A DNA stretch of 64,000 bases from contig NZ_JAXCIL010000002.1 in NCBI RefSeq assembly GCF_034387475.1, positions 806,001 to 870,000 of the forward strand, written 5' to 3'. Each line of letters starts with the position of its first letter. Within the stretch, counting starts at the first letter, position 1. This stretch comes from Pseudomonas sp. Teo4. GTDB taxonomy: Bacteria; Pseudomonadota; Gammaproteobacteria; Pseudomonadales; Pseudomonadaceae. The notes under the pieces were generated by a model. It made no database searches. It was given only the letters and a program-made list of their open reading frames with translations, and was not told the origin of the DNA. The position numbers were made by a program, and so were the translations under genes. This document shows positions 2,655 through 18,396 of the stretch, in pieces.

Positions 2655-2671
2655 GGCAAAGCTCCTTGTGC

Positions 2672-5008: not shown

Positions 5009-5200
5009 GCAAATGCTCCTTGAGGCATGGGCCCTGGCGAGCATTTCCGTTGGCGGAATCGAATCGCAGTCAGATGGGCTTATATTCTTTTAAGAGATAT
5101 AAATATTTGTTTTTCATATTTTGTGGAATAAGTGACTCCCTTTATAAGGTGGCTAACCCTCATCAGCAATTGCATTCGACCGAAAGTTTTCATGTAGAAA
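5009..5200. promoter_or_regulatory. Divergent sftP / sftR promoter region
   Basis: AT-rich 192-base gap between two divergent starts, and so the expected place for SftR binding. Two segments recur in the atsR/atsB gap. One is TATCTCTTAAAAGAAT on the minus strand at 5084-5099, itself an imperfect dyad. The other is ATAAGTGA on the plus strand at 5128-5135. Confidence 0.55.
5084..5099 (-). promoter_or_regulatory. Candidate SftR/sulfur-control site
   Basis: Minus-strand TATCTCTTAAAAGAAT. Its first 13 bases match TATCTCTTGAAAG at 8448-8460 in the other divergent ats promoter with one difference. The match and the dyad are visible; that a regulator binds here is inference. Confidence 0.4.
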
Positions 5201-6115
5201 ATGCATATAGACCTCCGCCAGCTCCGCCACTTCATTGCCCTTGTCGAGCACCGCAGCTTCGTTGCCGCGGCAGCGGCGGTGAACCTCTCGCAATCGGCGT
5301 TCAGCCGCAGCATCCAGACGTTGGAGCACAACATCGGCTGCCGCCTGGTCGACCGCGCCAGCAAAGAGCTGGCACCGACCCGCCAAGGCCTGCTGGTGCT
5401 GGAGCACTCGCGTCGGCTGGTGCATGGCGCGCACAACCTGGTCAATGAAATCCACCAGTTCAACGGGGCAACCACCGGCGTGGTGCGCTTCGGGTCAGGC
5501 CCTGCCCCGGCTGGCGGCCTGGTGCCTCGGGCGGTGGCGCGTTTCGTGGCCGAATACCCGGCGGCGCGTACCTGCTTTCAGGTGGACAACTGGCAGGCGT
5601 TGAACCGCAAGTTGATTGCCGAGGAGATCGAATTCTTCGTGGCCGATACCCGGCAGTTTGAATCCGACCCGGACTACCGGGTGCACAAGCTGGCACCGCA
5701 GCGCTGGCACTTCTGCTGCCGTGCAGGTCACCCGCTGACCGAGCGCGCCGAAGTACGTGCCCGCGATGTATTCGATTACCCCTTGGCGACCACCTTCCGG
5801 CCGCCGAACATCCGCAAGATTCTCAGCGACCTCAGCGGCCGCCAGGACTTCCTGCCCACGGTGGAATGCGAGCACGGCTATGCGCTGCTGAACGTGGTGA
5901 TGCACTCGGACACCATCGGCATTGCCTGCAATGCCAACTTGCGGCCGTATCAGGCGGAGGGAGGGTTGGTGGCGCTGGAGTTGGTGGATTTGCTACCGGA
6001 GCAGGAAGAGGCGTTCTACACCCGCTATGGGGTAGTGAGCCGTGTGGGATATGGCTTGTCGCCGCTGGCGCAGGGGTTGGTGAGGCAATTGATTGCCTGC
6101 GATACCGAACTCTAG
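5201..6115 (+). CDS. sftR: LysR-type regulator of sulfate-ester use, SftR-like
   Basis: A 304-residue LysR-family regulator with the N-terminal helix-turn-helix at about residues 3-62 (LRQLRHFIALVEHRSF, then LSQSAFSRSIQTLE) and a LysR substrate-binding domain from about 90. It stands divergent from sftP-astA, the classic layout for a LysR gene and its target. The whole neighbourhood matches the S-313 cluster in which SftR is needed for sulfate-ester metabolism. The likely inducing state is sulfur limitation, but the ligand cannot be read from the sequence. A REP palindrome lies between its stop and the convergent atsK gene. Confidence 0.85.
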   Translation: MHIDLRQLRHFIALVEHRSFVAAAAAVNLSQSAFSRSIQTLEHNIGCRLVDRASKELAPTRQGLLVLEHSRRLVHGAHNLVNEIHQFNGATTGVVRFGSGPAPAGGLVPRAVARFVAEYPAARTCFQVDNWQALNRKLIAEEIEFFVADTRQFESDPDYRVHKLAPQRWHFCCRAGHPLTERAEVRARDVFDYPLATTFRPPNIRKILSDLSGRQDFLPTVECEHGYALLNVVMHSDTIGIACNANLRPYQAEGGLVALELVDLLPEQEEAFYTRYGVVSRVGYGLSPLAQGLVRQLIACDTEL

Positions 6116-6130
6116 AAGGTCACCCTCATT

Positions 6131-6204
6131 CTGTGGGAGCGGGTTTACCCGCGAATACGATGGTGAATTAGCTGCCGTATTCGCGGGTAAACCCGCTCCC
6201 ACAG
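6131..6204. repeat. Perfect inverted REP pair between sftR and atsK
   Basis: A 29-base arm at 6131-6159 is repeated exactly in reverse complement at 6176-6204 around a 16-base loop. The core CGGGTTTACCCGCG is the same as in the pair at 822-909. Placed between convergent genes, it may act as a bidirectional transcription stop or stabiliser. Confidence 0.9.
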
Positions 6205-6213
6205 GGTTGTGCA

Positions 6214-7119
6214 TCAGCCTTTACGCGTTGTCCGGCTCAACTGTCCATCAACACCGACCGGCACCTCTCCCGCCAACGTCACCCGCCGTACCAAGCGCGG
6301 CTGAGTGCCATAGTCATCCACCGCATAATGCTGGGTGGCGCGGTTATCCCAAATCGCCACGTCACCGGCCTGCCAGCGCCAGCGCACGGTGTTCTCCAAC
6401 CGGGTCACATGCCCCTGCAGCACCGCGAACAGGTGCTGGGAGTCGGCCAGCGAGTAACCTTTGATGCGTTTGACGAAGTGCCCCAGTTGCAACGCCCGCT
6501 CGCCGCTGATCGGGTGCACCCGCACCACCGGGTGCTCGGTTTCATACACAGTCGAGGTGAACACTTTGCGATAACGCTCAAGCTTGGCCGGGTCGACATC
6601 CGGCTTGATGCTGGCGTAGTCGTATTCGTTGCTGTGCACCGCCCAGAGTTTGTCGGCCAGCTCGCGCAGCGGCTCAGGCAGCTCGCGGTAGGCAGCGGCC
6701 GTGTTGGCCCACACCGTATCGCCACCGGAGGCCGGCGCCACCACGCTGCGCAGGATCGAGGCCTTGGGGTAGGCATCGACGAAGGTCACGTCGGTGTGCC
6801 AGGAGTTGGCCCGCTGGCCTTCGGCACCGTCCAGCTGCAACAGGTAGCTGGTGCCGTCGACCACAGGCACAGTCGGGTGCGCGACCGGTTCGCCCAGCAG
6901 CTTGGCGAACCCTTCCTGGCTCTGGTCGTCGAGGTGGGTTTGCTCACGGAAGAAGATCACCTTGTGCTCGACCAGCGCCGCCTGGATTGCCTCGATGGTG
7001 GCGGCGTCCAGGTCGGCGGCGAGTTTCACGCCGCGGATTTCGGCGCCGATACGGCCGGCGATCGGGTGAATGTCGAGGGTTACGGTGTGCGGCGCTTTGG
7101 CCAGTGCGGCATTGCTCAT
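6214..7119 (-). CDS. atsK: Alkylsulfatase AtsK, Fe(II)/2-oxoglutarate dioxygenase
   Basis: A 301-residue TauD-family dioxygenase, the same length as AtsK of P. putida S-313. It cleaves alkyl sulfate esters oxidatively, giving an aldehyde and sulfate while 2-oxoglutarate becomes succinate. The iron ligands are visible: His108 and Asp110 in SWHTDVTF, and His264 in ATQHYAVDDYG. Arg residues for 2-oxoglutarate follow in QPRLVRRVT. The reading frame opens further upstream, but the start at 7117-7119 (MSNAALAKAP) has a GAGGA element before it and matches the family. Apart from the initiator it contains no Met and no Cys. It lies 44 bases after atsR in the same direction. Confidence 0.93.
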   Translation of the reverse strand: MSNAALAKAPHTVTLDIHPIAGRIGAEIRGVKLAADLDAATIEAIQAALVEHKVIFFREQTHLDDQSQEGFAKLLGEPVAHPTVPVVDGTSYLLQLDGAEGQRANSWHTDVTFVDAYPKASILRSVVAPASGGDTVWANTAAAYRELPEPLRELADKLWAVHSNEYDYASIKPDVDPAKLERYRKVFTSTVYETEHPVVRVHPISGERALQLGHFVKRIKGYSLADSQHLFAVLQGHVTRLENTVRWRWQAGDVAIWDNRATQHYAVDDYGTQPRLVRRVTLAGEVPVGVDGQLSRTTRKG

Positions 7120-7163
7120 TGCTGTGGTCCTCACGGTCGAATGAAGGGCTTGCTGGTCGGTAT

Positions 7164-8225
7164 TCAGCGGGCGGCCTGGGTGGCCTGTGGTTGTTGCAGG
7201 GCGGCATCGAGGAAGCGTGGCTCGACCCACTCGGAAACCTGGAAGCCCCGGCGGATCAGGCGCTCCTTGGCGGCCAGGTCAACGCCTTGCTGCAGCAGGC
7301 TGATGAATTCGGGGTCCAGGCGTGGGTCGAAGTAGTGCGCCAGGTTCTCCTCGGCAAGATCGCCCTCGATAATCACCTTTGGATAGTTGGCGGTGGTCGC
7401 CACCAGGTTCACGTAGGCCTCGCGGTTGTTCTCGTCACGCAGCCATTCGGTGGCCTGTTGCTGGGCCTTGACCAGGCGTGCGGTGAGGTCGGGGTGCTGT
7501 CGGATGAATTCGCCGGTGCCCAGCAATACCGCCTGGGTGCTGCCGGCCCCTTTGAGGTCGCGGGAGTTGACCGGCAACTCGACCAAACCGCGATCGCGCA
7601 GCGCCAGCAGGCTGGACAGGCCCCAGGTGGCGTCGATCTGCTTGGCGGCGATGGCAGCGTTGGCGGCGTTGAAATCCAGGTTGATCACTTTCAGGTCGCG
7701 CTCGCTCAGGCCCTGGCTGGCCAACGCGCTGGCGAACGACAGCTGGTTGGCGGTGCCACGGAACACCGCCACGCGCTTGCCCTTGAGGTCTTGCAGGGTC
7801 TTGATGCCCGAGCCGGGCACCACGCCCAGGTAGCTCTTCACCCCACGCACCCCGGCAGACAGCACCCGGGTGTCGAGACCATTGGCCTTGCCGATGATCG
7901 CGGCCAAGTCGCCAAGGTAGGCGAAGTCCGCCTGGCCGTTGGCCAAGGCTTCATTGATCACCGGTCCTGCGCCCTTGAAGAAGCGCCAGTCGATGCGGAT
8001 GCCATCCTTGGCGAACTCTTTCTCCAGCAGTTGTTGGTCGCGCAACACATCCACAACGCCACCGGCACTGGGTTTGCTACCGGCACTGAGGTCGGGCACG
8101 GCGATGCGGATGGACTCGGGTCTGGCGGCTTCGGACGCCTGGGCAGTGAGTGCGAAAGCGCACAGCAGGCCGACCAGCAGGGTCGGGGCAAAGCGGTTGA
8201 GCAGGTGGCGGGTCGGGGATTTCAT
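7164..8225 (-). CDS. atsR: Periplasmic sulfate-ester-binding protein AtsR
   Basis: A 353-residue ABC substrate-binding protein of the SsuA/TauA family. The signal peptide is clear (hydrophobic LLVGLLCAFALTAQA, cleavage near residue 30). The mature domain carries typical family segments such as GQADFAYLGDLAAI and FRGTANQLSFA. It should deliver alkyl sulfate esters to the AtsB/AtsC importer encoded divergently. The mature part has neither Met nor Cys. An SsuA-type sulfonate-binding role is an alternative, but atsK next door and synteny with S-313 favour sulfate esters. Confidence 0.88.
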   Translation of the reverse strand: MKSPTRHLLNRFAPTLLVGLLCAFALTAQASEAARPESIRIAVPDLSAGSKPSAGGVVDVLRDQQLLEKEFAKDGIRIDWRFFKGAGPVINEALANGQADFAYLGDLAAIIGKANGLDTRVLSAGVRGVKSYLGVVPGSGIKTLQDLKGKRVAVFRGTANQLSFASALASQGLSERDLKVINLDFNAANAAIAAKQIDATWGLSSLLALRDRGLVELPVNSRDLKGAGSTQAVLLGTGEFIRQHPDLTARLVKAQQQATEWLRDENNREAYVNLVATTANYPKVIIEGDLAEENLAHYFDPRLDPEFISLLQQGVDLAAKERLIRRGFQVSEWVEPRFLDAALQQPQATQAAR

Positions 8226-8522
8226 GGCAAGGCTCCTTGGCAGGCTGCCACCGGCGATGGCCGGCGCTTTGGCCAGAAGCTAGGCAGGTCTGGTTAGAAC
8301 CTACAAAGATCAAAACTTCATTTTTTAGTAACTGAAAGACATAAATCAGCAGGCATGCGGTTCTGCGGGCAGCTTGCGGGAAACGCATGGAAAATATGAG
8401 GAAAACGCAATGACATGGGGCTTCCGCATGCAAAGGACGCATGCTCTTATCTCTTGAAAGCCACTCATGTGAATTTTTAATTCCATAAGTGAATAACCTA
8501 ACAACGCTTCGAGAGATGGCTG
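8226..8522. promoter_or_regulatory. Divergent atsR-atsK / atsB-atsC promoter region
   Basis: A 297-base gap between divergent starts with no gene. It contains TATCTCTTGAAAG at 8448-8460 and ATAAGTGA at 8485-8492, both also found in the sftP/sftR gap. Several GCATG segments cluster at 8353-8444. No sigma-54 signature was seen. Confidence 0.55.
8448..8460 (+). promoter_or_regulatory. Candidate SftR/sulfur-control site
   Basis: TATCTCTTGAAAG, 12 of 13 bases shared with the minus-strand site at 5087-5099 in the sftP/sftR promoter region. It lies 63 bases before the atsB start. Binding is inferred from the recurrence only. Confidence 0.4.
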
Positions 8523-10109
8523 ATGAATGGAGTTCTGAGCAAGCGTTCGTGGTGGCAACCGGGCCCGCTACGCGGCCATTTCGCGAGACAAGGCCGCTCC
8601 CACAGCCTGCCGTGGGTTGTGCCTGCGGTGGTGGGCGGGCTGTGGCTGATTGCCAGCCAGCAGCATTGGATGAGCGAGCAAATCCTGCCCGCGCCCTCTC
8701 TGGTCTGGCAGACCGCGCTGGAGTTCGGTTCCGGTGAGCTCTGGGGTCACCTGTGGATAAGTCTTCAGCGGTTGTTCTGGGGGCTGTTTGCCGGAGTCGC
8801 CAGTGGCTTGCTGTTGGGCACCTGGCTGGGGGCTTCGCGCCGTGCGCAGACGCTGGTGCTGCCCACCTTCGTGGCCCTGGCGCAGATCCCGACCCTGGCC
8901 TGGATCCCCTTGTTCATGCTGTTTTTCGGTATTGGCGAACTGCTCAAGCTGGTGGTGCTGATCAAGGCCGTCGTCGTGCCGGTGACCCTGCACACACTGG
9001 TGGGCGTGCGCGATGCACAGCCCAAGCTGCGCGAAGCCGCCGCCGTGCTGCGCCTGCCCCGTCATCTGCTGTTCCTGCGTTTGCTGCTGCCAGCAGCCCT
9101 GCCCGCTTTTCTCACAGGTGTGCGTCTGGCCCTGGCCACCGGCTGGACGTCCTTGCTCGCCGTCGAGTTGCTGGCCTCCAGCGAAGGCATCGGCTACCTG
9201 ATGGTCTGGGGCCGACAGCTGTTCATGCTCGATCTGGTGTTCGTCTGCATTCTGGTCATCGGCCTGGTCGGTGCTGTGTTGGAGCGGGGCTTCTCCGGCC
9301 TGGAGAAACGCCTGCTGTACTGGCCGCAACCGGCAACCGGCGAACAGCAGCGCGGCCCCTTGCACCATGGCTGGCAGAGCCTGCTGCTACCGCTGACACT
9401 ACTTGCCCTATGGCAGGCCAGCAGCAGTTTCGGCTGGGTCGATGCGAATATCCTGACCTCGCCGCTGGAAGTTGTGTGCACCTTGATCAGCGGACTGCTG
9501 GACGGCTCGTTGCCCCAGGCCCTGGTCACAAGCCTGGAACGCACCTTGGGCGGTCTGCTGCTGGGAGGCGGAGCCGGTTTGCTGATCGGCCTGCTGCTGG
9601 GCTTGTCGCAAATAGCCGAACGCGCGTTCGGGCCGAGCCTGTCAGCCTTGCGCCAGGTCGCACTGTTCGCCTGGGTGCCGCTGCTCACCGCCTGGTTCGG
9701 ACTAGGTGAAGGGGCCAAGCAGGTGTTCGTCGCCCTCGCGGCATTCTTCCCGATGCTCATTGCCACCCAGCGCGGCATCGCCGGCCTGTCGCCGCAGTTG
9801 GCCGAAGCCGCACGCACGCTGCGCTTGAGCCTACCCCAACGGCTCCACCGGCTGGTGCTGCCCGGCGCCGCTCCCGCGATTTTCGCCGGCCTGCGCCTGG
9901 CACTGATCTACGCCTGGCTGGGTACCATCGGCGCCGAATACTTCATGCCCTCGGACGGTGGAATCGCCAGCCTGATGATCGGCGCACAGCAACTGTTTCG
10001 CATGGATCAGGTGATGGCCGCCATGGTCCTCATCGGCCTGGTCGGCGCCCTGCTCGGCACCCTGGGACAACGCATTGAATCGCGCGCCACGCGCTGGAGA
10101 ACCGCATGA
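8523..10109 (+). CDS. atsB: Double ABC permease AtsB for sulfate esters
   Basis: A 528-residue inner-membrane protein made of two SsuC/TauC-type permease domains joined head to tail (about residues 30-255 and 280-520). Each half carries the ATPase-contact loop of the family: LREAAAVLRLPRHLLFLRLL in the first and LAEAARTLRLSLPQRLHRLV in the second. Most importers of this kind use two copies of a 250-residue permease, so this fusion supplies the whole channel in one chain, as in S-313. A GAGAGATGG element precedes the ATG. The stop overlaps the atsC start by 4 bases, so the two genes are translationally coupled. Confidence 0.88.
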   Translation: MNGVLSKRSWWQPGPLRGHFARQGRSHSLPWVVPAVVGGLWLIASQQHWMSEQILPAPSLVWQTALEFGSGELWGHLWISLQRLFWGLFAGVASGLLLGTWLGASRRAQTLVLPTFVALAQIPTLAWIPLFMLFFGIGELLKLVVLIKAVVVPVTLHTLVGVRDAQPKLREAAAVLRLPRHLLFLRLLLPAALPAFLTGVRLALATGWTSLLAVELLASSEGIGYLMVWGRQLFMLDLVFVCILVIGLVGAVLERGFSGLEKRLLYWPQPATGEQQRGPLHHGWQSLLLPLTLLALWQASSSFGWVDANILTSPLEVVCTLISGLLDGSLPQALVTSLERTLGGLLLGGGAGLLIGLLLGLSQIAERAFGPSLSALRQVALFAWVPLLTAWFGLGEGAKQVFVALAAFFPMLIATQRGIAGLSPQLAEAARTLRLSLPQRLHRLVLPGAAPAIFAGLRLALIYAWLGTIGAEYFMPSDGGIASLMIGAQQLFRMDQVMAAMVLIGLVGALLGTLGQRIESRATRWRTA

Positions 10110-10969
10110 ACGCCTTCAATACCTCGGCCCTGCTTGCGGCCAATCAACCCGACGCCACGCCACCGCTGGTCAGCTTCGAAGGCGTCGGTAAAACCTTCAC
10201 CGTCGATGGCCAGGCATTCGAGGCCATTCGCAACTTCAACCTGTCGATCAACCAGGGCGAGTTCATCGCCATCGTCGGTGCCTCCGGTTGTGGCAAGTCG
10301 ACACTGCTGCGCCTGCTGGTGGGGCTGGATACTGACTATAGCGGCAGCATCCGCGTCGACGGCCAGCCGGTCAGTGGCATTGGTGGCGAGCGCGGGATCG
10401 TGTTTCAGGAGCACCGGCTATTCCCCTGGCTGACGGTAGAACAGAACATCAGCCTGGGCCTGGTCAACGAGAAGCTCACCCAGGGCGAGCGTGCCCGACG
10501 CATTCACGAGTTCGTGCAACTGGTGGGCCTGGTCGGCTTCGAGTCGGCCTACCCGCACCAGCTTTCCGGCGGCATGGCCCAGCGCGTGGCGATCGCACGA
10601 GGGTTGGTGGCGAGCCCACGCATCCTGTTGCTGGACGAGCCCTTCGGCGCGCTCGATGCACTGACCCGCCAGCAACTGCAGGATGAACTGCTGGCCATTC
10701 GCGAACGAGCAGGTATCACCACATTGCTGGTGACCCACGATGCCGAAGAAGCCACTTACCTGGCCGACCGGGTGGTGGTGCTGGGGCCACGTCCGGGGCG
10801 GATCAAGGCGGTGGTGGAGGTGGATGTGCCACACCCGCGCCTGCGCAGCGGGGTGGCGCTGCATGGGCTGCGTGAAAAGGTGCTGCATCAGATCACCGGG
10901 GATGGCGATTATCTGAAGCCTGCCGTGGCGCGGGTGCAGGGGCTGCGGCCGGAGCTGATTGCGCTCTGA
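10106..10969 (+). CDS. atsC: ABC transporter ATPase AtsC
   Basis: A 287-residue cytoplasmic ATPase that drives the AtsR/AtsB sulfate-ester importer. All nucleotide-binding motifs are visible: Walker A GASGCGKST, signature LSGGMAQR, Walker B ILLLDEP and switch His in LLVTHDAEEA. It belongs to the SsuB/TauB/nitrate group. The ATG overlaps the atsB stop. An inverted REP pair follows within 15 bases and may end the transcript. Confidence 0.9.
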   Translation: MNAFNTSALLAANQPDATPPLVSFEGVGKTFTVDGQAFEAIRNFNLSINQGEFIAIVGASGCGKSTLLRLLVGLDTDYSGSIRVDGQPVSGIGGERGIVFQEHRLFPWLTVEQNISLGLVNEKLTQGERARRIHEFVQLVGLVGFESAYPHQLSGGMAQRVAIARGLVASPRILLLDEPFGALDALTRQQLQDELLAIRERAGITTLLVTHDAEEATYLADRVVVLGPRPGRIKAVVEVDVPHPRLRSGVALHGLREKVLHQITGDGDYLKPAVARVQGLRPELIAL

Positions 10970-11097: not shown

Positions 11098-11370
11098 CTA
11101 CAGGGTGCGCAGGTAGTTCCAGGGATAGATGCCGCGCTCATGACCGTCGCTGAACACCAGTTGCACGCCATACCCCTGCGGTTCGATGCGTTCCACACGT
11201 ACATCCTCGCGCACCAACTGGATGCCGCCGCGCAGTTTTGCCGCGCGGCATTGCGAGCACGGGCAGGCTCCGCGCAACCGTATATGGCTGACGACCTGCT
11301 CCGCGTCGTCCCATTGCACGATCAACTGCCCCGGACCGCGCTTATTGCGAATCTCACCAGGGGCATTCAT
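11098..11370 (-). CDS. DUF971 domain protein (CxxC-containing)
   Basis: A 90-residue protein consisting of one DUF971 domain, also known as the N-terminal domain of gamma-butyrobetaine hydroxylase and found fused to Mrp/ApbC-type iron-sulfur carriers. Cysteines cluster in RGACPCSQC and could bind metal. It starts at the ATG at 11368-11370, which overlaps the stop of the HEAT gene (TGATG); a GTG one codon earlier is possible. As the last gene of an operon with a 2x[4Fe-4S] ferredoxin and a flavoprotein, a part in metal or cluster handling is plausible, but this is inference. Confidence 0.8.
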   Translation of the reverse strand: MNAPGEIRNKRGPGQLIVQWDDAEQVVSHIRLRGACPCSQCRAAKLRGGIQLVREDVRVERIEPQGYGVQLVFSDGHERGIYPWNYLRTL

Positions 11371-12335
11371 CACACGGTTCCTCGCAACTGGGTCAAAGCA
11401 ATGCGCACCGCCTTGCGCACCTCCGGGTCGCTGTCCGCTTCGGCCGCCTGCAGCACCGGCATCGCTCGGGCCTGCCCCAACTCGCCGAGCGCCAGCGCCG
11501 CCTCTTTGCGCAGGTTGGCGATACCATGCCCGAGCAGTTCGCCCAAGGCGTCCAGTGCCTCGACATGGCGAAGCCGCCCCAAGGCGCGGGCGGCGCGCAG
11601 GCGGACCTGCCAGTAGTCGTCAGCCAGCGCTTGCACCAGCGCGGGACCGGCTTGTACATGGCCAACCTTGCCCAACGTGGTGGCAGCTTCTTCGCGCACT
11701 TGCCAGGCGGTGTCGGCCAATGCCGCGACCAAAGCTGGCAGCACACTGACATCGCGCGCCAGGCCCAAGGCACCGATGGCCGCGCGGCGCACCTCGGTGT
11801 CTGGCTCGGTGGCAGCCAGCGCTGCCAGTGCTGGCACTGCAGGTTGGTGCTTGAGCCAACCCAGAATACCCACCGCTTCGCGCCGAACCCCCGCATCCTG
11901 ATCGCTCAGCGCAAGCAGTGCGGGCCCTGCGGCATCTTCCAGGCGCAGCTCGCGCAGGGCTCTCAGGGCGCTGGCGCGCACAAACACATCGGCATGGGTG
12001 GCCCACGGCAAAATCAGTTGGCCTGCTTCAAGGCTCTTGAGCTCGCTCAGGCTCTGCGCAGCAGCCAGGCGTACCGGCTCGGCGGTATCAGCCAATGCGG
12101 CACACAAGGCCTGCACCACTTCAGGCTCTTCCCAGGCTTCGAGTAAACGTGCCGCCTCGGCACGGACTTCATCCGCCGCATCGACCAGCAGTGCATCGGT
12201 CAACCACGGCAGGGCGTCCAGGTCCTCAAGGTCGGCCAGCTCGATCAGTGCGATACGCCGCACGCCAGCGTCTGCATCCTCAAGGCGGGGCAGCAAGTCG
12301 ATGATGTCGGGATTGTCTGTGTTTCGTTCAGTCAT
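11370..12335 (-). CDS. HEAT-repeat (PBS-lyase type) protein
   Basis: A 321-residue, Ala/Leu-rich protein made almost wholly of about ten 31-residue HEAT-like repeats; DVSVLPALVAALADTAWQVR and VGHVQAGPALVQALADDYWQ are two neighbouring examples. Such solenoids bind partner proteins; relatives include phycobilin lyase subunits and scaffolds for enzyme maturation. No signal peptide or catalytic motif is visible. It overlaps the ABC ATPase gene by 4 bases upstream and the DUF971 gene downstream, so it belongs firmly to this operon. Its partner could be the flavoprotein-ferredoxin pair, but nothing in the sequence proves this. Confidence 0.85.
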   Translation of the reverse strand: MTERNTDNPDIIDLLPRLEDADAGVRRIALIELADLEDLDALPWLTDALLVDAADEVRAEAARLLEAWEEPEVVQALCAALADTAEPVRLAAAQSLSELKSLEAGQLILPWATHADVFVRASALRALRELRLEDAAGPALLALSDQDAGVRREAVGILGWLKHQPAVPALAALAATEPDTEVRRAAIGALGLARDVSVLPALVAALADTAWQVREEAATTLGKVGHVQAGPALVQALADDYWQVRLRAARALGRLRHVEALDALGELLGHGIANLRKEAALALGELGQARAMPVLQAAEADSDPEVRKAVRIALTQLRGTV

Positions 12336-13192
12336 AGCGCGATCCGTAGCGGAGGGTGGTCAGTGTCAGGCAGGCCAAGGGGGGTGAGACGCGGCAGTTC
12401 GCGTCCCTCTTCGTGGCGCAACAAGGCCAGACAATGACGCTTGAGGTGGGTGAACGCCGGGCTGGTCAGCAGACTCGCGCGGCGCGGGCGTGGGAAGGTC
12501 AGGCGCAGGTCTTCGATGAAGCGACCGGGGCGCGGGCTCATCACCAGAATGCGATCGGCGAGGAACAGGGCTTCGTCGATATCGTGGGTGACGAAAACCA
12601 CGGTGGTGCGAATGCGCGTCCAGATATCCAGCAGCAACTCCTGCATGCGAGCACGGGTCTGGGCGTCGAGGGCGCCAAACGGTTCGTCCATCAGCAGCAG
12701 GCGTGGCCGGTTGATCAGCACCCTGGCGATCTCGGCACGTTGCTGCATGCCACCGGAGAGCTGGTTGGGCCAGCGTTCGGCGAAGTCGGCAAGGCCGACC
12801 AGCTGGAGCATTTCACTGGCCCGCTGCTGGCGCTCGGCCTTGCTCTGGCCCTGCATCTTCAAGCCGAAGGCAACGTTATCCAGCACATTGCGCCACGGCA
12901 GCAACGTGTGGTGCTGGAATACCATGCCACGTTCGGGGGACGGGCCGCCAACCGCCAGGCCGTCTACACGCAGGTCGCCGCCATTGGGCAACAGATGCCC
13001 GGCCAGAGCGCCCAGCAAGGTGGATTTGCCACAACCGGACGGCCCGAGGATACAGACGAACTCACCCGGGGCCACCGAGAAGTCCAGCGACTGGACGGCT
13101 TCGAACGCTTCTGCGCCATGCCCAAGGCGGATCGATACGCCACGCGCCTCGATGCGCCCAGGTTCGGGGGCCTGCTGATAACTGCTCATCAT
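12332..13192 (-). CDS. ABC transporter ATPase (SsuB/NrtD type)
   Basis: A 286-residue ATPase with Walker A GPSGCGKST, signature LSGGMQQR, Walker B LLLMDEP and switch His in VFVTHDIDEA. It belongs to the nitrate/sulfonate/taurine importer group. The start at 13190-13192 forms an ATGA overlap with the permease stop; a second ATG directly follows. It powers the transporter formed with the permease at 13189-13971 and the binding protein at 13987-15393. The cargo is unknown. Confidence 0.9.
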   Translation of the reverse strand: MMSSYQQAPEPGRIEARGVSIRLGHGAEAFEAVQSLDFSVAPGEFVCILGPSGCGKSTLLGALAGHLLPNGGDLRVDGLAVGGPSPERGMVFQHHTLLPWRNVLDNVAFGLKMQGQSKAERQQRASEMLQLVGLADFAERWPNQLSGGMQQRAEIARVLINRPRLLLMDEPFGALDAQTRARMQELLLDIWTRIRTTVVFVTHDIDEALFLADRILVMSPRPGRFIEDLRLTFPRPRRASLLTSPAFTHLKRHCLALLRHEEGRELPRLTPLGLPDTDHPPLRIAL

Positions 13193-13971
13193 GCCCCCCT
13201 CCGCGCCCGATACCACGGCGTCGCCAGGGCACCCAGACGCTTGACCAGAGCACTGCTGCCCATGCCCAGCGCCCCGATCAGCAACATGCCTACGATGATG
13301 TCCGGGTAGTTCTGCAAGGTATACGACTCCCAGGTGTAGTAGCCGATACCGAACTGCCCAGAGATCATCTCGGCGGTGACCAAGCAGAACCACGAGGTAC
13401 CCATGCCGATGGCCAGGCCAGTGACGATGCTGGGCAACGCCCCTGGCAGCACCACTTCTCGCAGAATCGCCCAGCGCCCGGCACCCAGGCTGCGAGCCGA
13501 AGCCACCAGCCGCGGGTCGACCGCTTCGACGCCATGCACGGTGTTGAGCAAAATCGGGAACAGCGCACCGGTGAAGGTGATGAACACCATGGAAAGCTCC
13601 GACGACGGAAACATCAGGATCGCCAGCGGGATCCATGCCACAGCCGGGATCGGCCGCAGCACTTCCAGGGGCGGTAGCAGTGTGTCCTCGGCCCAGTTCG
13701 AGCGGCCGATCAACAGCCCCAACGTCACACCCAGCAGGACGGCAATGCCATAACCGGCGAACACGCGCATCAGGCTGCTGCCCAGGTGTGCCAGCAAGGC
13801 ACTGGAAGCCAGCAACTGCCAGGCAGCCTCAAGCACCGCTTTCGGCGTGGGCACGTAGGTGAAGGTGAACAGGCCGAAGTCCAGTTTTGCCGTGGCGGCC
13901 AGTTGCCAGAACGACAGGCAGGCCAACAGGGAAGCCAGGCGCACGGGCCAGCGCTTGAAGTCGCGGGTCAT
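13189..13971 (-). CDS. ABC permease (SsuC/TauC type)
   Basis: A 260-residue inner-membrane permease of the nitrate/sulfonate/bicarbonate importer group. About six hydrophobic segments are visible, with the ATPase-contact loop around residues 153-170 (VASARSLGAGRWAILREVVL). Unlike AtsB it is a single-domain permease, so two copies should form the channel. It sits 15 bases after the binding-protein gene and overlaps the ATPase gene by 4 bases. Confidence 0.9.
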   Translation of the reverse strand: MTRDFKRWPVRLASLLACLSFWQLAATAKLDFGLFTFTYVPTPKAVLEAAWQLLASSALLAHLGSSLMRVFAGYGIAVLLGVTLGLLIGRSNWAEDTLLPPLEVLRPIPAVAWIPLAILMFPSSELSMVFITFTGALFPILLNTVHGVEAVDPRLVASARSLGAGRWAILREVVLPGALPSIVTGLAIGMGTSWFCLVTAEMISGQFGIGYYTWESYTLQNYPDIIVGMLLIGALGMGSSALVKRLGALATPWYRARRGA

Positions 13972-13986
13972 GTCAGTGCCTCCCGG

Positions 13987-15393
13987 TCAGCGCTGGGCGA
14001 CCAGTTTCTGGTTGGCGTTGACGAAGTCCAGCGTTTCACCGCCGTGGGCCTTGGCGTATTGCTCGGCCTGGTCCTTGAGCAGGAAGGCCGCCAGTTCGCC
14101 CTTGGCGTTGCGCACGAACCAGGCTTGGTTGGCCAGCAGCTTGATGCCGCTATCGGCAGCCTGGGCATAGATGGCTCGGATGTCCTTGCCTTCCTGCTCA
14201 AGCTGGGCCAGGGCGCCGAGCGCCGCTTCCGGGGAAGCATAGTGGCGAACCTTGTCCTCGCCCCGTACCCAGATCTGCGCCAGGCGGCTGAAGTCGGTGA
14301 TCGGTTTGCCAGTCAGTGCATCGTTGGCCTTGAGCGGCAACGGTTGATAGTTCTTCAACGCCTTGTCGTAATCCAGGCCGGCCTGCTTGAAGGCCGTACG
14401 GATGTACTGGTCGTCGATGAACTGGGTGGTATCCAGGCCGCGATCGGTCTTCTTCAGCAGCTTGAGTGTATCGATAGACGTGGCCACGGCCTGGCGGTAC
14501 TCGGGTTTCCAGGTCAAGTCACGAGTTTGCAGGCCCAGCGGACCGTGGAACAGGTAGTTCACCTCGGCTTCGATACCGGTGACTTTCTCGATCAGTTCGC
14601 TGTACTTCTCAGGCTCGGCGGCAATCAACCGATCCGCTTCGAGGCTGGCCCGCAGGTAGGCGGTGACCACCTCGGGATACTTTTTCGCATAGTCGGCGTC
14701 CACCAGAGCACCGTGGAAAGTCGGCGCGTTGGCCTGCGAGCCGTCGAAGATCTTGCGGGCGAAGCCACGGTTGGGGAACAGCTCGGCGAAGGGCACAAAA
14801 TCGGCATGGGCCTCGATACGATTGCTGCGCAAGGCAGAGCCGGCAATCTCCGGCGCCTGGGCAATGATCCGCACGTCTTTCTGCGGGTCCCAGCCTTGTG
14901 CGGCGACCGCCCGCAACAGCATGCCGTGGGCGGTGGAGGCGAACGGCACGGAGATGGTCTTGCCCTTGAGCTCGCTCAATGACTGCACGCCAGAAGTTGC
15001 CGGCACGACAATGCCATTGCCGCTGCCATGCACACTGCCAGACAACACGCTGATGAACAGGCTGCGCTTGCCAGCGTCCAGGTGGGCAACACCATTGAAC
15101 GAGCCGGGGAAGTCGGCCATGGCGCCAAAGTCCAGTTTGCCGGCGACCATTTCGTTGGTCAGCGGTGCGCCGCTGGTAAAGTTCTTCCACTCGATCTGGT
15201 ACTGCGCGTCCTTGTACTTGCCATCATGGGGCAGGTATTTCTCCAGCAAGCCCAGCTCGCGGATCAACAGGCCGCCGGTGGCGCAATTGATGGTGGTGTC
15301 CTGGGTGCCGATGGCGACCCGAATGGTTTCGGCGCTGGCATTGAGCCCAGCAAACGCCAGCGCGAGGCCGGCCACGGTTGCTACAAGGCGCAT
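13987..15393 (-). CDS. ABC substrate-binding protein with NosL-like C-terminus
   Basis: A 468-residue secreted protein, about 130 residues longer than a normal SsuA/NrtA binding protein. The start at 15391-15393 follows GAGGGGAAA and gives a signal peptide ending near NASA/ET (residue 21). Residues 22 to about 350 form the binding domain (GKLDFGAMADFPGSFNG, SVPFASTAHGML). The last 110 residues contain DIRAIYAQAADSGIKLLANQ and GELAAFLLKDQAEQYAKAHG, which resemble the copper chaperone NosL. The Met/Cys metal ligands typical of NosL are not visible, so this half may bind something else or only serve structure. The ligand is unknown. Confidence 0.82.
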   Translation of the reverse strand: MRLVATVAGLALAFAGLNASAETIRVAIGTQDTTINCATGGLLIRELGLLEKYLPHDGKYKDAQYQIEWKNFTSGAPLTNEMVAGKLDFGAMADFPGSFNGVAHLDAGKRSLFISVLSGSVHGSGNGIVVPATSGVQSLSELKGKTISVPFASTAHGMLLRAVAAQGWDPQKDVRIIAQAPEIAGSALRSNRIEAHADFVPFAELFPNRGFARKIFDGSQANAPTFHGALVDADYAKKYPEVVTAYLRASLEADRLIAAEPEKYSELIEKVTGIEAEVNYLFHGPLGLQTRDLTWKPEYRQAVATSIDTLKLLKKTDRGLDTTQFIDDQYIRTAFKQAGLDYDKALKNYQPLPLKANDALTGKPITDFSRLAQIWVRGEDKVRHYASPEAALGALAQLEQEGKDIRAIYAQAADSGIKLLANQAWFVRNAKGELAAFLLKDQAEQYAKAHGGETLDFVNANQKLVAQR

Positions 15394-15511
15394 AGGTGTT
15401 TCCCCTCGATTCGTTATGAGTATTGGAGTCGTCTCCGCCACCAGGCTTGGGTGGTGGGAAACGAGGGGCATTGCAGGTGGGCGTCCGGTGGTTCGCCGGA
15501 TGGCCGGGCGA

Positions 15512-15757
15512 TTAACGCAACAGGTACGGAATGTCGACCTTCACTGCGCCGGTGGGGCAGTCTTTTTCACAGGGCATGCAGTACCAGCATTCGTCGAAAG
15601 CCATGTAGGCCTTCTGCGTAGCTGGGTTGATGGCCAGCAGGTCCATTGGGCAGACCTCGACGCAGACGGTGCAGCCCTTTTCAGCGATGCATTTGTCTTC
15701 GTCGATGGTTACCGGGGCGCTGCTGCGAAAAAAGATTTCCTGGGGTTGATAGGCCAT
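15512..15757 (-). CDS. 2x[4Fe-4S] ferredoxin (AprB-like)
   Basis: An 81-residue ferredoxin with two cysteine clusters: CIAEKGCTVCVEVCP at about residues 23-37 and CWYCMPCEKDCP at about 57-68. Together they supply eight ligands for two [4Fe-4S] clusters. The layout resembles the cluster part of adenylylsulfate reductase beta (AprB) without its C-terminal tail. The gene follows the AprA-like flavoprotein, so it is likely the electron partner of that enzyme in the cytoplasm. Confidence 0.88.
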   Translation of the reverse strand: MAYQPQEIFFRSSAPVTIDEDKCIAEKGCTVCVEVCPMDLLAINPATQKAYMAFDECWYCMPCEKDCPTGAVKVDIPYLLR

Positions 15758-15840
15758 GTCACGGGGTCCTTGGGGCCTTCGGCCCTCGTTCTAAGTTGTC
15801 GCTGGAGCGGATGGCCCCATCCCTACAGAGCACCACCGCC

Positions 15841-15869
15841 CCTGTGGGAGCCGGCTTGTCAGCGATGGG
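15841..15869. repeat. Single REP element
   Basis: One copy of the P. putida REP sequence (CCTGTGGGAGCCGGCTTGTC and following) in the 131-base gap between the flavoprotein and ferredoxin genes. In this operon position it could tune relative mRNA levels. Confidence 0.7.
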
Positions 15870-15888
15870 CTGCACCGCGGCCCTGAAT

Positions 15889-17613
15889 TCATGCCGCATC
15901 GGCCTTCAATCGCAGTCGTTCGTACGCCGTTTGCTCGTCGGCATCCAAAGCGATCAGGTACGGCTCGACTGCTTTCTTGAAACTGGTCATGGCACCGTCC
16001 TCACCCTTCTTCAGATGGCAATGGCAGAACCACTCGCTATCGTTGCGCTCCGGGAAATCTACGCGGCGGTGGTAAAGCCCCCAGCGGCTTTCCTCGCGGA
16101 ACAACGAAGCCCGTGCCGCCATTTCGGCACAGTCACGTATCACCGCGACCTCCATCGCCCGCATCAACTCATGGGGGTTGTTGGCCTTCATCTGGGCCAA
16201 GTCGCGCTCGATCTCGGCAAAGCGCGCCAGGCCAATTTCCATCTTTTTGGTTACCTTGGGCGGCTGCAGGTAGTCGTTGACCATGCGCCGCAGTTTGTAC
16301 TCGACCTGGGCCGGCGGCAGGCCGTGTTCACGCCGCAACGGTGCGAACACGCGCTCCTGTTCGCGTTCGACCTGTGCGCTGTCGACCTCGGCCAGCTCTC
16401 GCCCGGCCACGTACTGTGCTGCGTTCACTCCAGCGAACCAGCCGTAGGTAAACGCCCCCAGCATGTAGTTGTGCGGCACCGCGGCCATGTCGCCGGCGGC
16501 ATAAAGGCCTTTGACGCTGGTCTCGGCCTTTTCGTTGACCCAAACCCCCGATGCAGAGTGACCCGAGCAGAAGCCGATTTCGGAGATGTGCATCTCGACC
16601 ATATGCTGGCGGTAATCGGTGCCACGCCCGGCGTGGAACTGGCCACGACTGGGGCGTTCATTGCTGTGCAGGATTTCTTCGATGTTCTGGATAGTTTCCT
16701 CGGCCAGGTGATCGAGCTTGAGGAACACCGGGCCATTGCCACCTTCGAGCTCCTGGTGGAACTCCCACATCATCTGCCCGCTCCAGTAGTCGCATTCGAT
16801 GAAGCGCTCACCCTTGCTGTTGGCGGTATAGCCCCCCAGTGGCCCAGTGACATAAGCACACGCCGGACCGTTGTAGTCCTTGATCAGCGGGTTGATCTGG
16901 AAGCACTCAAGGTTCGCCAGTTCCGCGCCAGCGTGGTAGGCCATGGCATAGCCGTCACCCGCATTGGTGGGGTTTTCGTAGGTACCCATCAGGTAGCCCG
17001 ACGACGGCAAGCCCAACCGGCCGGCGGCGCCACAGGCGAGGATCACCGCCTTGGCGCGGATCACCCGGAATTCGCCACTTCGGCAGTCGAAACCGAGCAC
17101 TCCCGCAGCAGCCCCTTCGCCATCGAGCAGAACCCGGGTGCAGACCATACGGTTGCTGATTTCGACCCGCGCGCGCTTGAGCTGACGGTAGAGCACCTTC
17201 TTGATGTCGTGGCCTTCGGGCATGGGCAGCACGTAGGCCCCCATGTGATGCACCTTCTTCACCGCGTAGTCGCCAGTCTCGTCCTTTTCGAACTTCACGC
17301 CCCAGCGGTCCAGCTGCTCGATGGTCTCGAAGCTGCGCGTGGCGTAAGCGTGCACGGTGGCCTGGTTGACGATACCGTCATTGGCCACGGTGATTTCCTT
17401 GGTGTACTGCTCGGGTGTGGCGTGGCCGGGAATGATCGCGTTGTTCAAGCCGTCCATGCCCATGCTGATGGCACCACTTCGCTTGACGTTGGCTTTGTCC
17501 AGCAACAGAACACGCAGGTTCTTGTCTTGCTCCTTGGCCTTGATAGCCGCCATCGGCCCGGCGGTGCCGCCACCGATGACGACGATGTCGTAGTCCTGGG
17601 TTTCGATGCTCAT
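15889..17613 (-). CDS. AprA / fumarate-reductase-like flavoprotein
   Basis: A 574-residue FAD enzyme of the succinate dehydrogenase/fumarate reductase/adenylylsulfate reductase alpha superfamily. The N-terminal nucleotide-binding motif is VVIGGGTAGPMAA (about residues 11-23) and a second FAD motif is GLYAAGDMAAVPHNYMLGAF near 385-405. The pairing with an AprB-like ferredoxin and the general layout favour the AprA branch, so a sulfur oxyanion reaction is possible. AprA's substrate-binding residues need an alignment: KDYNGP resembles AprA's KDGYGP, but I do not see the Arg that I recall just before it. No signal peptide, so cytoplasmic. It is rich in Met and Cys, unlike the ats proteins. Its start overlaps the GntR stop by 4 bases. 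Confidence 0.8.
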   Translation of the reverse strand: MSIETQDYDIVVIGGGTAGPMAAIKAKEQDKNLRVLLLDKANVKRSGAISMGMDGLNNAIIPGHATPEQYTKEITVANDGIVNQATVHAYATRSFETIEQLDRWGVKFEKDETGDYAVKKVHHMGAYVLPMPEGHDIKKVLYRQLKRARVEISNRMVCTRVLLDGEGAAAGVLGFDCRSGEFRVIRAKAVILACGAAGRLGLPSSGYLMGTYENPTNAGDGYAMAYHAGAELANLECFQINPLIKDYNGPACAYVTGPLGGYTANSKGERFIECDYWSGQMMWEFHQELEGGNGPVFLKLDHLAEETIQNIEEILHSNERPSRGQFHAGRGTDYRQHMVEMHISEIGFCSGHSASGVWVNEKAETSVKGLYAAGDMAAVPHNYMLGAFTYGWFAGVNAAQYVAGRELAEVDSAQVEREQERVFAPLRREHGLPPAQVEYKLRRMVNDYLQPPKVTKKMEIGLARFAEIERDLAQMKANNPHELMRAMEVAVIRDCAEMAARASLFREESRWGLYHRRVDFPERNDSEWFCHCHLKKGEDGAMTSFKKAVEPYLIALDADEQTAYERLRLKADAA

Positions 17614-18359
17614 GCCTTGCTCCCTTTCTGGCGGTCGATGCGCAGGCGGTATTGGAAAGCATCACCACGGTAATAGAGGTGTTCGAAGTCCAGCGGCGTG
17701 CCATCGGCGGTATGGGTAAGGCGCTCGATGCGCATGATGGGCGAGCCCTCTTCCACTTCCAGGGCCTGGGTCAGGTCGCTGTCAGCCAGCACCGCATCGA
17801 TGGCCAGGTCGGCGTGCCCGAGCGCAATGCCGCAGTCGTTTTCCAGCAAGAGGAAAATGTCGCGGGAGACCAGATCGGCTTTTTCCAGCTTTTCGCCGAC
17901 CGTCTTTGGCAACCAGGTCAGTTCCAGTGAAATCGGCTCGCGGTTGATCAGGCGAACCCGGCGGATCTCGGTGACCAGGCTGCCTTCCTCGACCTGCAGG
18001 CGCGCCGCAACCAGTGCGCTCGCTGGCACATGACGGAAGCTACGTAGGCGATTGAGCACTTCGTAACCCATTTGTGTCATCGACTCGGCCAGACCCTGCA
18101 GGGTGCTGACGTTCTGGAACGCCTTGGGTTTGGCTACGAACGTGCCCTTGCCGTGGATCTTGAAGATCAGCCCTTCCTTCTGCAGGTCACCCAGCGCCTG
18201 GCGCACGGTGATGCGGCTGACATCGAACAGCTTTCCCAGTTCGCTTTCCGAGGGCATGCGGCTGTGTGGCGGATAGGTGCCATCAAGAATGCGCTCGCGC
18301 AGCACTTCCTTGAGTTGGGTGTAGAGCGGTACCGGGGACAGGGGGAGCAGTTCGGCCAT
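17610..18359 (-). CDS. GntR-family regulator, HutC subfamily
   Basis: A 249-residue regulator with an N-terminal winged helix (about residues 8-72; RMPSESELGKLF, VSRITVRQALGDLQKEGLI) and a C-terminal UTRA effector domain (about 95-240, ending EHLYYRGDAFQYRLRI). It starts at 18357-18359 after AAGAGA. It is the first gene of the flavoprotein-transporter operon and overlaps the next gene. A perfect palindrome at 18381-18396, just before its start, is the likely operator, which suggests autoregulated repression relieved by the transported or processed small molecule. Confidence 0.9.
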   Translation of the reverse strand: MAELLPLSPVPLYTQLKEVLRERILDGTYPPHSRMPSESELGKLFDVSRITVRQALGDLQKEGLIFKIHGKGTFVAKPKAFQNVSTLQGLAESMTQMGYEVLNRLRSFRHVPASALVAARLQVEEGSLVTEIRRVRLINREPISLELTWLPKTVGEKLEKADLVSRDIFLLLENDCGIALGHADLAIDAVLADSDLTQALEVEEGSPIMRIERLTHTADGTPLDFEHLYYRGDAFQYRLRIDRQKGSKA

Positions 18360-18380
18360 GGGTCTCTTCGCTAGTCGGCT

Positions 18381-18396
18381 ACTTGTTATAACAAGT
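18381..18396. promoter_or_regulatory. Palindromic operator of the GntR operon
   Basis: ACTTGTTATAACAAGT is a perfect 16-base palindrome 21 bases upstream of the GntR start. Its ACTTGT...ACAAGT arms match the general form of HutC-subfamily operators. It is the only such site I noticed in the operon. Confidence 0.7.

Follow-up and report, generated by a model that had tools for sequence, protein, structure and literature searches.

The assimilatory 3′-phosphoadenosine 5′-phosphosulfate (PAPS) reductase of Methanothermococcus thermolithotrophicus (PDB 8a8o) belongs to the fumarate-reductase family by its flavoprotein, which is paired with a small subunit that holds two [4Fe-4S] clusters (PMC10322725). 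Nature also has a reductase that frees sulfite from a sulfonate reductively and without O2, the nitrogenase-like isethionate reductase IsrBHDK (PMC11423573). Here we describe an eight-gene operon of Pseudomonas sp. Teo4 (GCF_034387475.1, contig NZ_JAXCIL010000002.1) that likewise encodes such a flavoprotein with such a small subunit; we give roughly even weight for and against the prediction that its enzyme draws on ferredoxin electrons to free sulfite from a sulfonate or sulfate ester taken up by the cell. The operon lies in a 64,000-nucleotide stretch (positions 806,001 to 870,000 of the contig), referred to here as the window. Its proteins are unrelated to IsrBHDK, and a flavin would do the chemistry; unlike the PAPS reductase system, it encodes an importer, a HEAT-repeat protein and a DUF971 protein and contains no sulfate-activation gene. 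With dissimilatory adenosine 5′-phosphosulfate (APS) reductase, AprBA, it has in common an AprA-like sequence and an AprB-type ferredoxin with a CWxC tryptophan. With the SsuABC, TauABC and AtsRBC importers it shares a substrate-binding protein (SBP), permease and ATPase of the NitT/TauT type, although its SBP has an extra NosL-like domain and none of SsuD, TauD or AtsK is encoded inside the operon.

The same module, with the same predicted theme, appears as cargo of F. caldus plasmids in a 2025 plasmid survey, which in its accessible part names 'ferredoxin/APS reductase/GntR' together with a NitT/TauT transporter and predicts organosulfonate uptake and assimilation (PMC12375680); that part gives a survey prediction, with no mechanism, wider distribution or test. 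We found no experimental study of the gene set in the open-access literature, a search that left subscription papers mostly outside, and the available parts of PMC8557817, PMC3826726, PMC7784912 and PMC3827995 contain nothing on the module. An earlier annotation made from the DNA letters alone (the sequence-only reading) had known of no characterised pathway with this set of genes, which fits this literature apart from the assimilation predicted for the plasmid copy.

The operon is real and conserved. From its upstream end, eight minus-strand genes at 11098–18359 encode a GntR-family regulator with a UTRA sensor domain (17610–18359), an FAD flavoprotein that resembles APS and PAPS reductases and is the probable catalytic subunit (15889–17613), an AprB-like ferredoxin with eight cluster cysteines as the probable electron-transfer subunit (15512–15757), a periplasmic SBP of the NitT/TauT family with a NosL-like C-terminal domain (13987–15393), the permease (13189–13971) and ATPase (12332–13192) of an ATP-binding cassette (ABC) importer, a HEAT-repeat protein that is probably the third enzyme subunit (11370–12335) and a DUF971/GBBH-like_N protein, a possible Fe-S maturation helper (11098–11373). 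The order is as the sequence-only reading had it, and its description of mostly overlapping or closely spaced genes behind one palindrome is borne out. Four of the seven junctions are 4-bp overlaps (GntR/flavoprotein, permease/ATPase, ATPase/HEAT and HEAT/DUF971), and 15 bp separate the SBP and permease genes. The ferredoxin gene is flanked by wider gaps of 131 bp on the flavoprotein side and 118 bp on the SBP side, the former (15758–15888) having the look of what we take to be a Pseudomonas repetitive extragenic palindromic (REP)-type repeat. On the basis of this layout, we infer that the eight genes are co-expressed.

We compared 119 loci. L001–L080, all Pseudomonas or labelled close kin, are the best 80 among 553 relatives from genome contigs, and 39 are further loci. 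Setting aside L112, L113 and L119–L122, which belong to Pseudomonadaceae, 33 of the latter lie outside that family, 13 from genomes and 20 from plasmids; these 33 are not independent of one another, some being near-duplicates (L125/L134 and L130/L141, for example). Two further listings comprise the best 120 of 6457 and the best 120 of 6548. The genome-neighbourhood search that the sequence-only reading had proposed recovered the full set of eight genes, always in one and the same order, in 70 of the 80 Pseudomonas loci, and core genes share the flavoprotein's strand in every one of 527 cases. Flavoprotein, ferredoxin and HEAT genes occur together on one strand in all 33 outside loci, accompanied by genes for SBP (29), permease (29), ATPase (31), DUF971 (18) and GntR (14). 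The gene set spans proteobacteria, cyanobacteria and actinobacteria. The family is present in 42 of 119 Pseudomonas genomes sampled and, across the class to which the window belongs, in 5 of 274, the Teo4 genome being counted both times. A threshold of E ≤ 1e-80 picks out 51 of 72,556 plasmid records, and among the 50 that were listed are rhizobia, Paraburkholderia, Acinetobacter, Acidithiobacillus, four cyanobacteria and two actinobacteria.

Ten Pseudomonas loci are incomplete. Six of them, from the P. putida group (L001, L002, L008, L009, L014 and L016), keep flavoprotein, ferredoxin, HEAT and DUF971 and are missing their own SBP, permease and ATPase, as if the ats-like importer beside them could stand in. 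L015 is missing the importer, and L025, L040 and L063 are missing further parts, some at contig ends. In L025, the GntR and flavoprotein genes are present, and ferredoxin, HEAT, DUF971 and importer genes were not found in the 8 kb after position 9701, so that the locus is possibly split by an insertion. In one Pseudomonas genome, the flavoprotein gene is divided over two overlapping frames (G636:C1:1893174-1894875), so that the gene is broken unless the sequence is in error.

The flavoprotein belongs to NCBIfam family NF006131 (PRK08275), which it matches over residues 2–573 with 1137.7 bits against a curated cut-off of 587. The family is named 'fumarate reductase/succinate dehydrogenase', a family label that probably misnames the operon's enzyme. 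When a profile of 30 relatives was compared with the PDB, PAPS reductase 8a8o scored 278 bits, Archaeoglobus fulgidus APS reductase 201–202 bits and succinate dehydrogenase (SDH) 128 bits, which together with the ferredoxin matches below upholds the sequence-only reading of an AprA-like flavoprotein with an AprB-like partner. Identity to AprA is 23–27%, and the protein falls far short of the AprA model TIGR02061 (182.9 bits against a cut-off of 641.75; two AprA controls scored 1085 and 934). In a quick tree, 28 module proteins drawn from the 119 loci and 17 AprA-like proteins, two of them confirmed as AprA, lie on opposite sides, with SH-aLRT values of 100 for the AprA branch and 88 for the module branch, the latter with SDH and NadB rows from the Teo4 genome counted in. 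The phylogeny and active-site alignment that had been suggested thus place the family beside AprA and not inside it, and in no unrelated enzyme group of known function.

We considered residues as fixed when found in at least 27 of the 28 module proteins and in all 17 AprA-like proteins. Fixed and identical in both groups are, among others, N57, H352, H381, E345, R510 and W528; N57 and H352 align with Asn74 and His398 of the AprA active site. Three positions are fixed within each group and differ between them, with Arg265, Gln145 and Trp234 of A. fulgidus AprA (numbering read by eye from the profile–PDB alignment) replaced by L243, V128 and Y212, respectively; Arg265 is a substrate contact in AprA. 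Gln145 is named as a substrate residue in PMC10322725. Because the N57/H352-type residues are shared and the AprA arginine and glutamine are replaced, the flavoprotein has probably kept the fold and the sulfite end and lost the nucleotide end. PAPS reductase 8a8o, aligned over profile positions 7–565, keeps the equivalents of N57 and H352 and also the arginine at AprA position 265, where the window protein has leucine; the loop at residues 104–123 of the window protein, which carries HHxGxYVLPMPEG, is unlike that of 8a8o. We reject a true APS reductase on family cut-offs, tree and residues. We reject a fumarate reductase or SDH on scores, partner subunit and residues: of the substrate residues of Escherichia coli SdhA, His242, Thr254 and Glu255 are replaced by N241, A253 and Y254, and Arg286 and Arg399 fall in gaps (alignment read by eye). 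AlphaFold models built from shallow alignments had mean pLDDT values of 39.1 for the flavoprotein and 46.4 for the SBP, too low for use.

The ferredoxin is 81 residues long, compared with 150–166 in AprB, and scores 35.3 bits against the AprB model TIGR02060 (cut-off 135.65), so that neither subunit of the module approaches the AprBA cut-offs. Its PDB matches include AprB (3gyx_B and 1jnr_B) and the PAPS reductase beta subunit (8a8o_C). It has the eight cluster cysteines, and the motif CWxCxxCxxxCP is present in all 118 homologues. Trp42 of PAPS reductase is proposed for electron transfer in PMC10322725, and the CWxC tryptophan is, in our own reading by analogy, the same residue. The neighbourhood scan took its query proteins from these same loci, and its matches therefore include the queries. 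Of the 33 outside loci, 14 have one or more genes for electron supply close to the module (FdxA in 11, an FNR-type FAD/NAD reductase in 8, Rnf in 2 and a 1100–1150-aa FAD oxidoreductase in 2), and a Crp/Fnr regulator occurs in 15 of the 39 further loci. Because of these electron-supply and Crp/Fnr genes, we favour a reductive, perhaps low-oxygen role for the module. In L106 and L107, Rnf complex genes lie downstream of the module, and L107 also has SCO1/SenC and cytochrome c genes between importer and GntR. The 1100–1150-aa protein (L123:10574-14035 and L104:14706-17999), near both module and FdxA, has Pyr_redox_2 as its sole Pfam match and is possibly an NAD(P)H:ferredoxin oxidoreductase.

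All three importer components are nearest to taurine, sulfonate or nitrate importers of the NitT/TauT (SsuA/TauA) type, in keeping with the SsuABC-type importer of the sequence-only reading. The SBP profile matched TauA at 94 bits, SsuA at 78 and a nitrate-transport protein at 70, with no thiosulfate or sulfate binder among its four PDB matches. The permease (PF00528) is SaoP-, SsuC- and NtrB-like, and the best NCBIfam model for the ATPase (PF00005) is a taurine ABC ATPase. Because the matches to the curated TauA, SsuA, SsuC and TauB models are below cut-off, as are the other NCBIfam matches of the permease, the family by itself assigns no substrate. The NosL-like tail that had been noticed on the SBP is below the Pfam cut-off in the window copy; 18 of 28 family members do match NosL at E ≤ 0.01 (best 1.9e-8). 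On three cyanobacterial plasmids, the flavoprotein gene adjoins genes for LysR regulators of 666–678 aa (L125:6652-8652, L126:6403-8439 and L134:4137-6152) with an SBP-like C-terminal half, recognised by BLAST similarity and, in the one tested, by Pfam NMT1_2 at E = 3e-4, below cut-off; it is as if they sensed the same ligand as the SBP. An amidase gene lies near the module in L124, L127 and L115, the latter two sharing 50% identity with the L124 copy, and might point towards a substrate that carries an amide; GNAT acetyltransferase genes lie near the module in L124 and L127.

The window HEAT protein (PF13646) aligns with the HEAT portion of PRK13800, a model of the fused protein, and its gene adjoins or is fused to that of the flavoprotein in related loci. 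In Tsukamurella, the two form a single protein of 893 aa, which scores 1568 bits against PRK13800 (cut-off 1196), and a 939-aa open frame in Nonomuraea is a fusion of the same type. Because of these actinobacterial fusions, the HEAT protein is more likely a subunit of a stable complex than a maturation factor, contrary to the role in metal-cluster maturation first suggested for it and DUF971 together. For DUF971 (PF06155) that suggestion fares better, through four cyanobacterial plasmids: on all four, a gene for Mrp/NBP35, which Pfam identifies in the one copy tested as an Fe-S transfer ATPase, follows HEAT, and DUF971 was not found there. Plant HCF101 joins Mrp/NBP35 and DUF971 domains, and this, with the replacement in cyanobacteria, supports by analogy a role for DUF971 as an Fe-S maturation helper. 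A CxCxxC motif is present in 95 of 101 DUF971 copies; because some alphaproteobacterial copies have none, its cysteines cannot be essential.

Upstream of the operon, the palindrome ACTTGTTATAACAAGT (18381–18396) stands 21 bp ahead of the GntR start. It is the single site in the 6.5-Mb genome at up to two mismatches, with no further site found at that threshold, and it recurs with 0–3 mismatches no more than 120 bp upstream of GntR in all 80 Pseudomonas loci, compared with 6–9 mismatches in one shuffled sequence per locus. Because it is unique in the genome and kept upstream of GntR, the palindrome looks like a local operator rather than a regulon site, presumably bound by the GntR/UTRA protein. 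That protein has the GntR helix–turn–helix (PF00392) and UTRA (PF07702) domains and is below the cut-off of every one of the 25 NCBIfam matches listed (of 26). A scan of window positions 1–24000 at Rfam gathering scores returned tRNA-Arg alone, and intrinsic terminator predictions gave 10 sites, on both strands and all within genes, compared with 4.9 ± 2.3 in shuffled sequence.

The module is linked to sulfur genes in several lineages. Homologues of AtsC and AtsB (80–92%) lie downstream of it in 13 of the 80 Pseudomonas loci, homologues of SftR, SftP and AtsK lie upstream in 5 others, and the P. nitroreducens group has AtsK or its locus on the opposite side of the module from that in the window. 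On two Sinorhizobium plasmids, an AtsK relative (57–58%) is encoded 2 kb upstream. Four Pseudomonadaceae genomes hold a single AtsK (79–100%, E ≤ 1e-60), which in three is within 10 kb of the module. YeiH is the chief determinant of sulfite resistance in Salmonella (PMC12880088). It is near the module in 7 of the 39 further loci and on three of the four cyanobacterial plasmids, and in a set of 19 genomes its Pfam family is found within 10 kb of the module in four (G282, G373, G420 and G461, with one or two copies in each). Because these 19 genomes hold only 21 YeiH copies above cut-off, about 0.08 such placements would be expected. YeiH or TauE/SafE occurs in 9 of the 33 outside loci; TauE/SafE alone is near the module in 5 of the 39, four of the five matches being query loci.

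In the window itself, a sulfate-ester locus at 978–10969 directly adjoins the operon. It encodes an AtsC-like ATPase (10106–10969, plus strand), kept beside the module in P. putida-group loci, a double-length AtsB-like permease (8523–10109, plus), an AtsR/SsuA-like binding protein (7164–8225, minus; best PDB match SsuA 3uif), an AtsK alkylsulfatase of the TauD family (6214–7119, minus; 642 bits over 301 aa to AtsK 1oih), a SftR-like regulator of the LysR family (5201–6115, plus), a SftP-like protein matching TonB-dependent receptor models (2672–5044, minus) and, at the far end, an arylsulfotransferase (ASST; 978–2654, minus; PF05935, 422 bits). The AtsC, AtsB, SftR and SftP names are given by position, following the atsACBR-sftR-atsK-sftP layout of strain UW4, which the window parallels (PMC3596284). 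No arylsulfatase was found among the genes of this locus that were tested, and no homologue of the arylsulfotransferase was found in the 119 related loci.

We propose that the operon encodes an importer and a cytoplasmic reductase of probably three subunits, a scheme in which the substrate class, the direction, sulfite as product and every subunit role are our interpretation. The NitT/TauT-type importer would bring in an organic sulfo compound R-SO3−, either a sulfonate or a sulfate ester. The ferredoxin, by way of two [4Fe-4S] clusters, would hand low-potential electrons to the flavoprotein's FAD, and the reduced FAD would attack the sulfur, as proposed for APS/PAPS reductase, while the organic part leaves. 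The resulting FAD-N5-sulfite adduct would yield sulfite, which the cell would assimilate or, if it has YeiH or TauE, export. HEAT would serve as a structural or docking subunit, DUF971 (Mrp/NBP35 in cyanobacteria) would help to load Fe-S clusters, and the GntR/UTRA protein would control the operon from the palindrome in response to a ligand. The chemistry and the AtsK linkage speak for cleavage of the O–S bond of a sulfate ester, the nearest relatives of the SBP for cleavage of the C–S bond of a sulfonate, and both are candidates. The import and cytoplasmic conversion of a sulfur compound envisaged by the sequence-only reading thus gains partial support, from SBP kinship and from the sulfur genes around some copies.

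Several observations weigh against sulfite release from a sulfonate or sulfate ester. The sulfonate C–S bond gives a poor leaving group for APS-reductase chemistry, and the L123 copy, on a plasmid of a sulfur oxidiser, is hard to square with sulfur scavenging. No ats or sft gene lies beside the core in 62 of the 80 Pseudomonas loci in the stretch examined (six of the 62 have only a 39–40% AtsK relative), and 14 of the 19 genomes have no AtsK at E ≤ 1e-60. Three of the four genomes with YeiH near the module (G373, G420 and G461) share a genus code, and neither YeiH nor TauE is near it in 24 of the 33 outside loci or in any of the 80 Pseudomonas loci. TauE/SafE, with 2–13 matches per genome and none within 10 kb of the module in the 19 genomes, counts little alone and is not borne out as a general neighbour. 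None of the electron suppliers searched for was found in the stretch examined of the 80 Pseudomonas loci, and electrons in Pseudomonas would therefore come from genes elsewhere.

Some of these points suit other explanations. The same machine could cut an S–S or S–N bond, as in S-sulfocysteine, thiosulfate, polythionates or sulfamates: such leaving groups fit APS-reductase chemistry better than a carbanion, the enzyme evidence (PDB profile, residues and CWxC ferredoxin) is shared in full, and an inorganic or S-sulfonate substrate would make sense of the copy in a sulfur oxidiser. Against this stand the kinship of the SBP to taurine and sulfonate binders, its lack of a thiosulfate- or sulfate-binding match and the neighbouring AtsK, which acts on organic sulfate esters; we consider this version unlikely. 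A sulfur-free substrate, with a fumarate-reductase-like reduction of an unsaturated acid or of an oxyanion such as nitrate taken up by the NitT-type transporter, would accord with the NCBIfam family name and with the 70-bit match to the nitrate-transport protein. It is at odds with the replaced or gapped SDH substrate residues, with SDH scores below those of PAPS and APS reductase, with the AprB-like partner and with the sulfur genes nearby, and seems to us slightly less probable again.

The enzyme might instead run in the oxidising direction, taking sulfite or sulfinate and passing electrons to ferredoxin and NADP+, like AprBA in sulfur oxidisers, for detoxification or energy. APS reductases are reversible (PMC10322725), FNR-type reductases could work both ways, and YeiH is named a putative sulfate exporter (TIGR00698). 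The substrate arginine and glutamine of AprA are missing, however, ATP sulfurylase is named in none of the 18 annotated plasmid tables (of 20), and an importer accompanies the enzyme in most loci. Rnf, found near two copies, is a maker of reduced ferredoxin. Oxidation accordingly ranks marginally below a sulfur-free substrate in our estimate. Finally, the sulfur neighbours could be incidental to another redox task, such as reduction of a cofactor or signalling compound; non-core neighbours do vary, and the 62 Pseudomonas loci with no ats or sft gene agree with this, yet the AtsK, YeiH and TauE/SafE linkages arise in different lineages, and we regard coincidence as the most doubtful of these explanations.

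If sulfite release from organic sulfo compounds is correct, the module may represent a widespread, oxygen-independent 'reductive sulfatase/desulfonase', an APS-reductase relative without the nucleotide pocket that converts organic sulfo groups to sulfite with ferredoxin electrons, a broader claim that we hold tentatively, at somewhat less than even confidence. SsuD, TauD and AtsK, several of the main sulfur-scavenging enzymes of aerobic soil bacteria, need oxygen, which hydrolytic sulfatases do without, as do lyases such as Xsc. In cyanobacteria and in bacteria associated with soil or plants, the module's enzyme would complement AtsK, TauD and SsuD, and it would be the flavin counterpart of the nitrogenase-like isethionate reductase. 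A further oxygen-independent sulfur route, annotated as 'fumarate reductase', would then exist in the 42 sampled Pseudomonas genomes that hold the family, as well as on many rhizobial and Burkholderiales plasmids and in some cyanobacteria and actinobacteria. The APS-reductase family would gain a reaction, a misannotation that is common would be put right, and the use of organosulfur compounds in the rhizosphere, in nodules and in soil low in oxygen would become testable.

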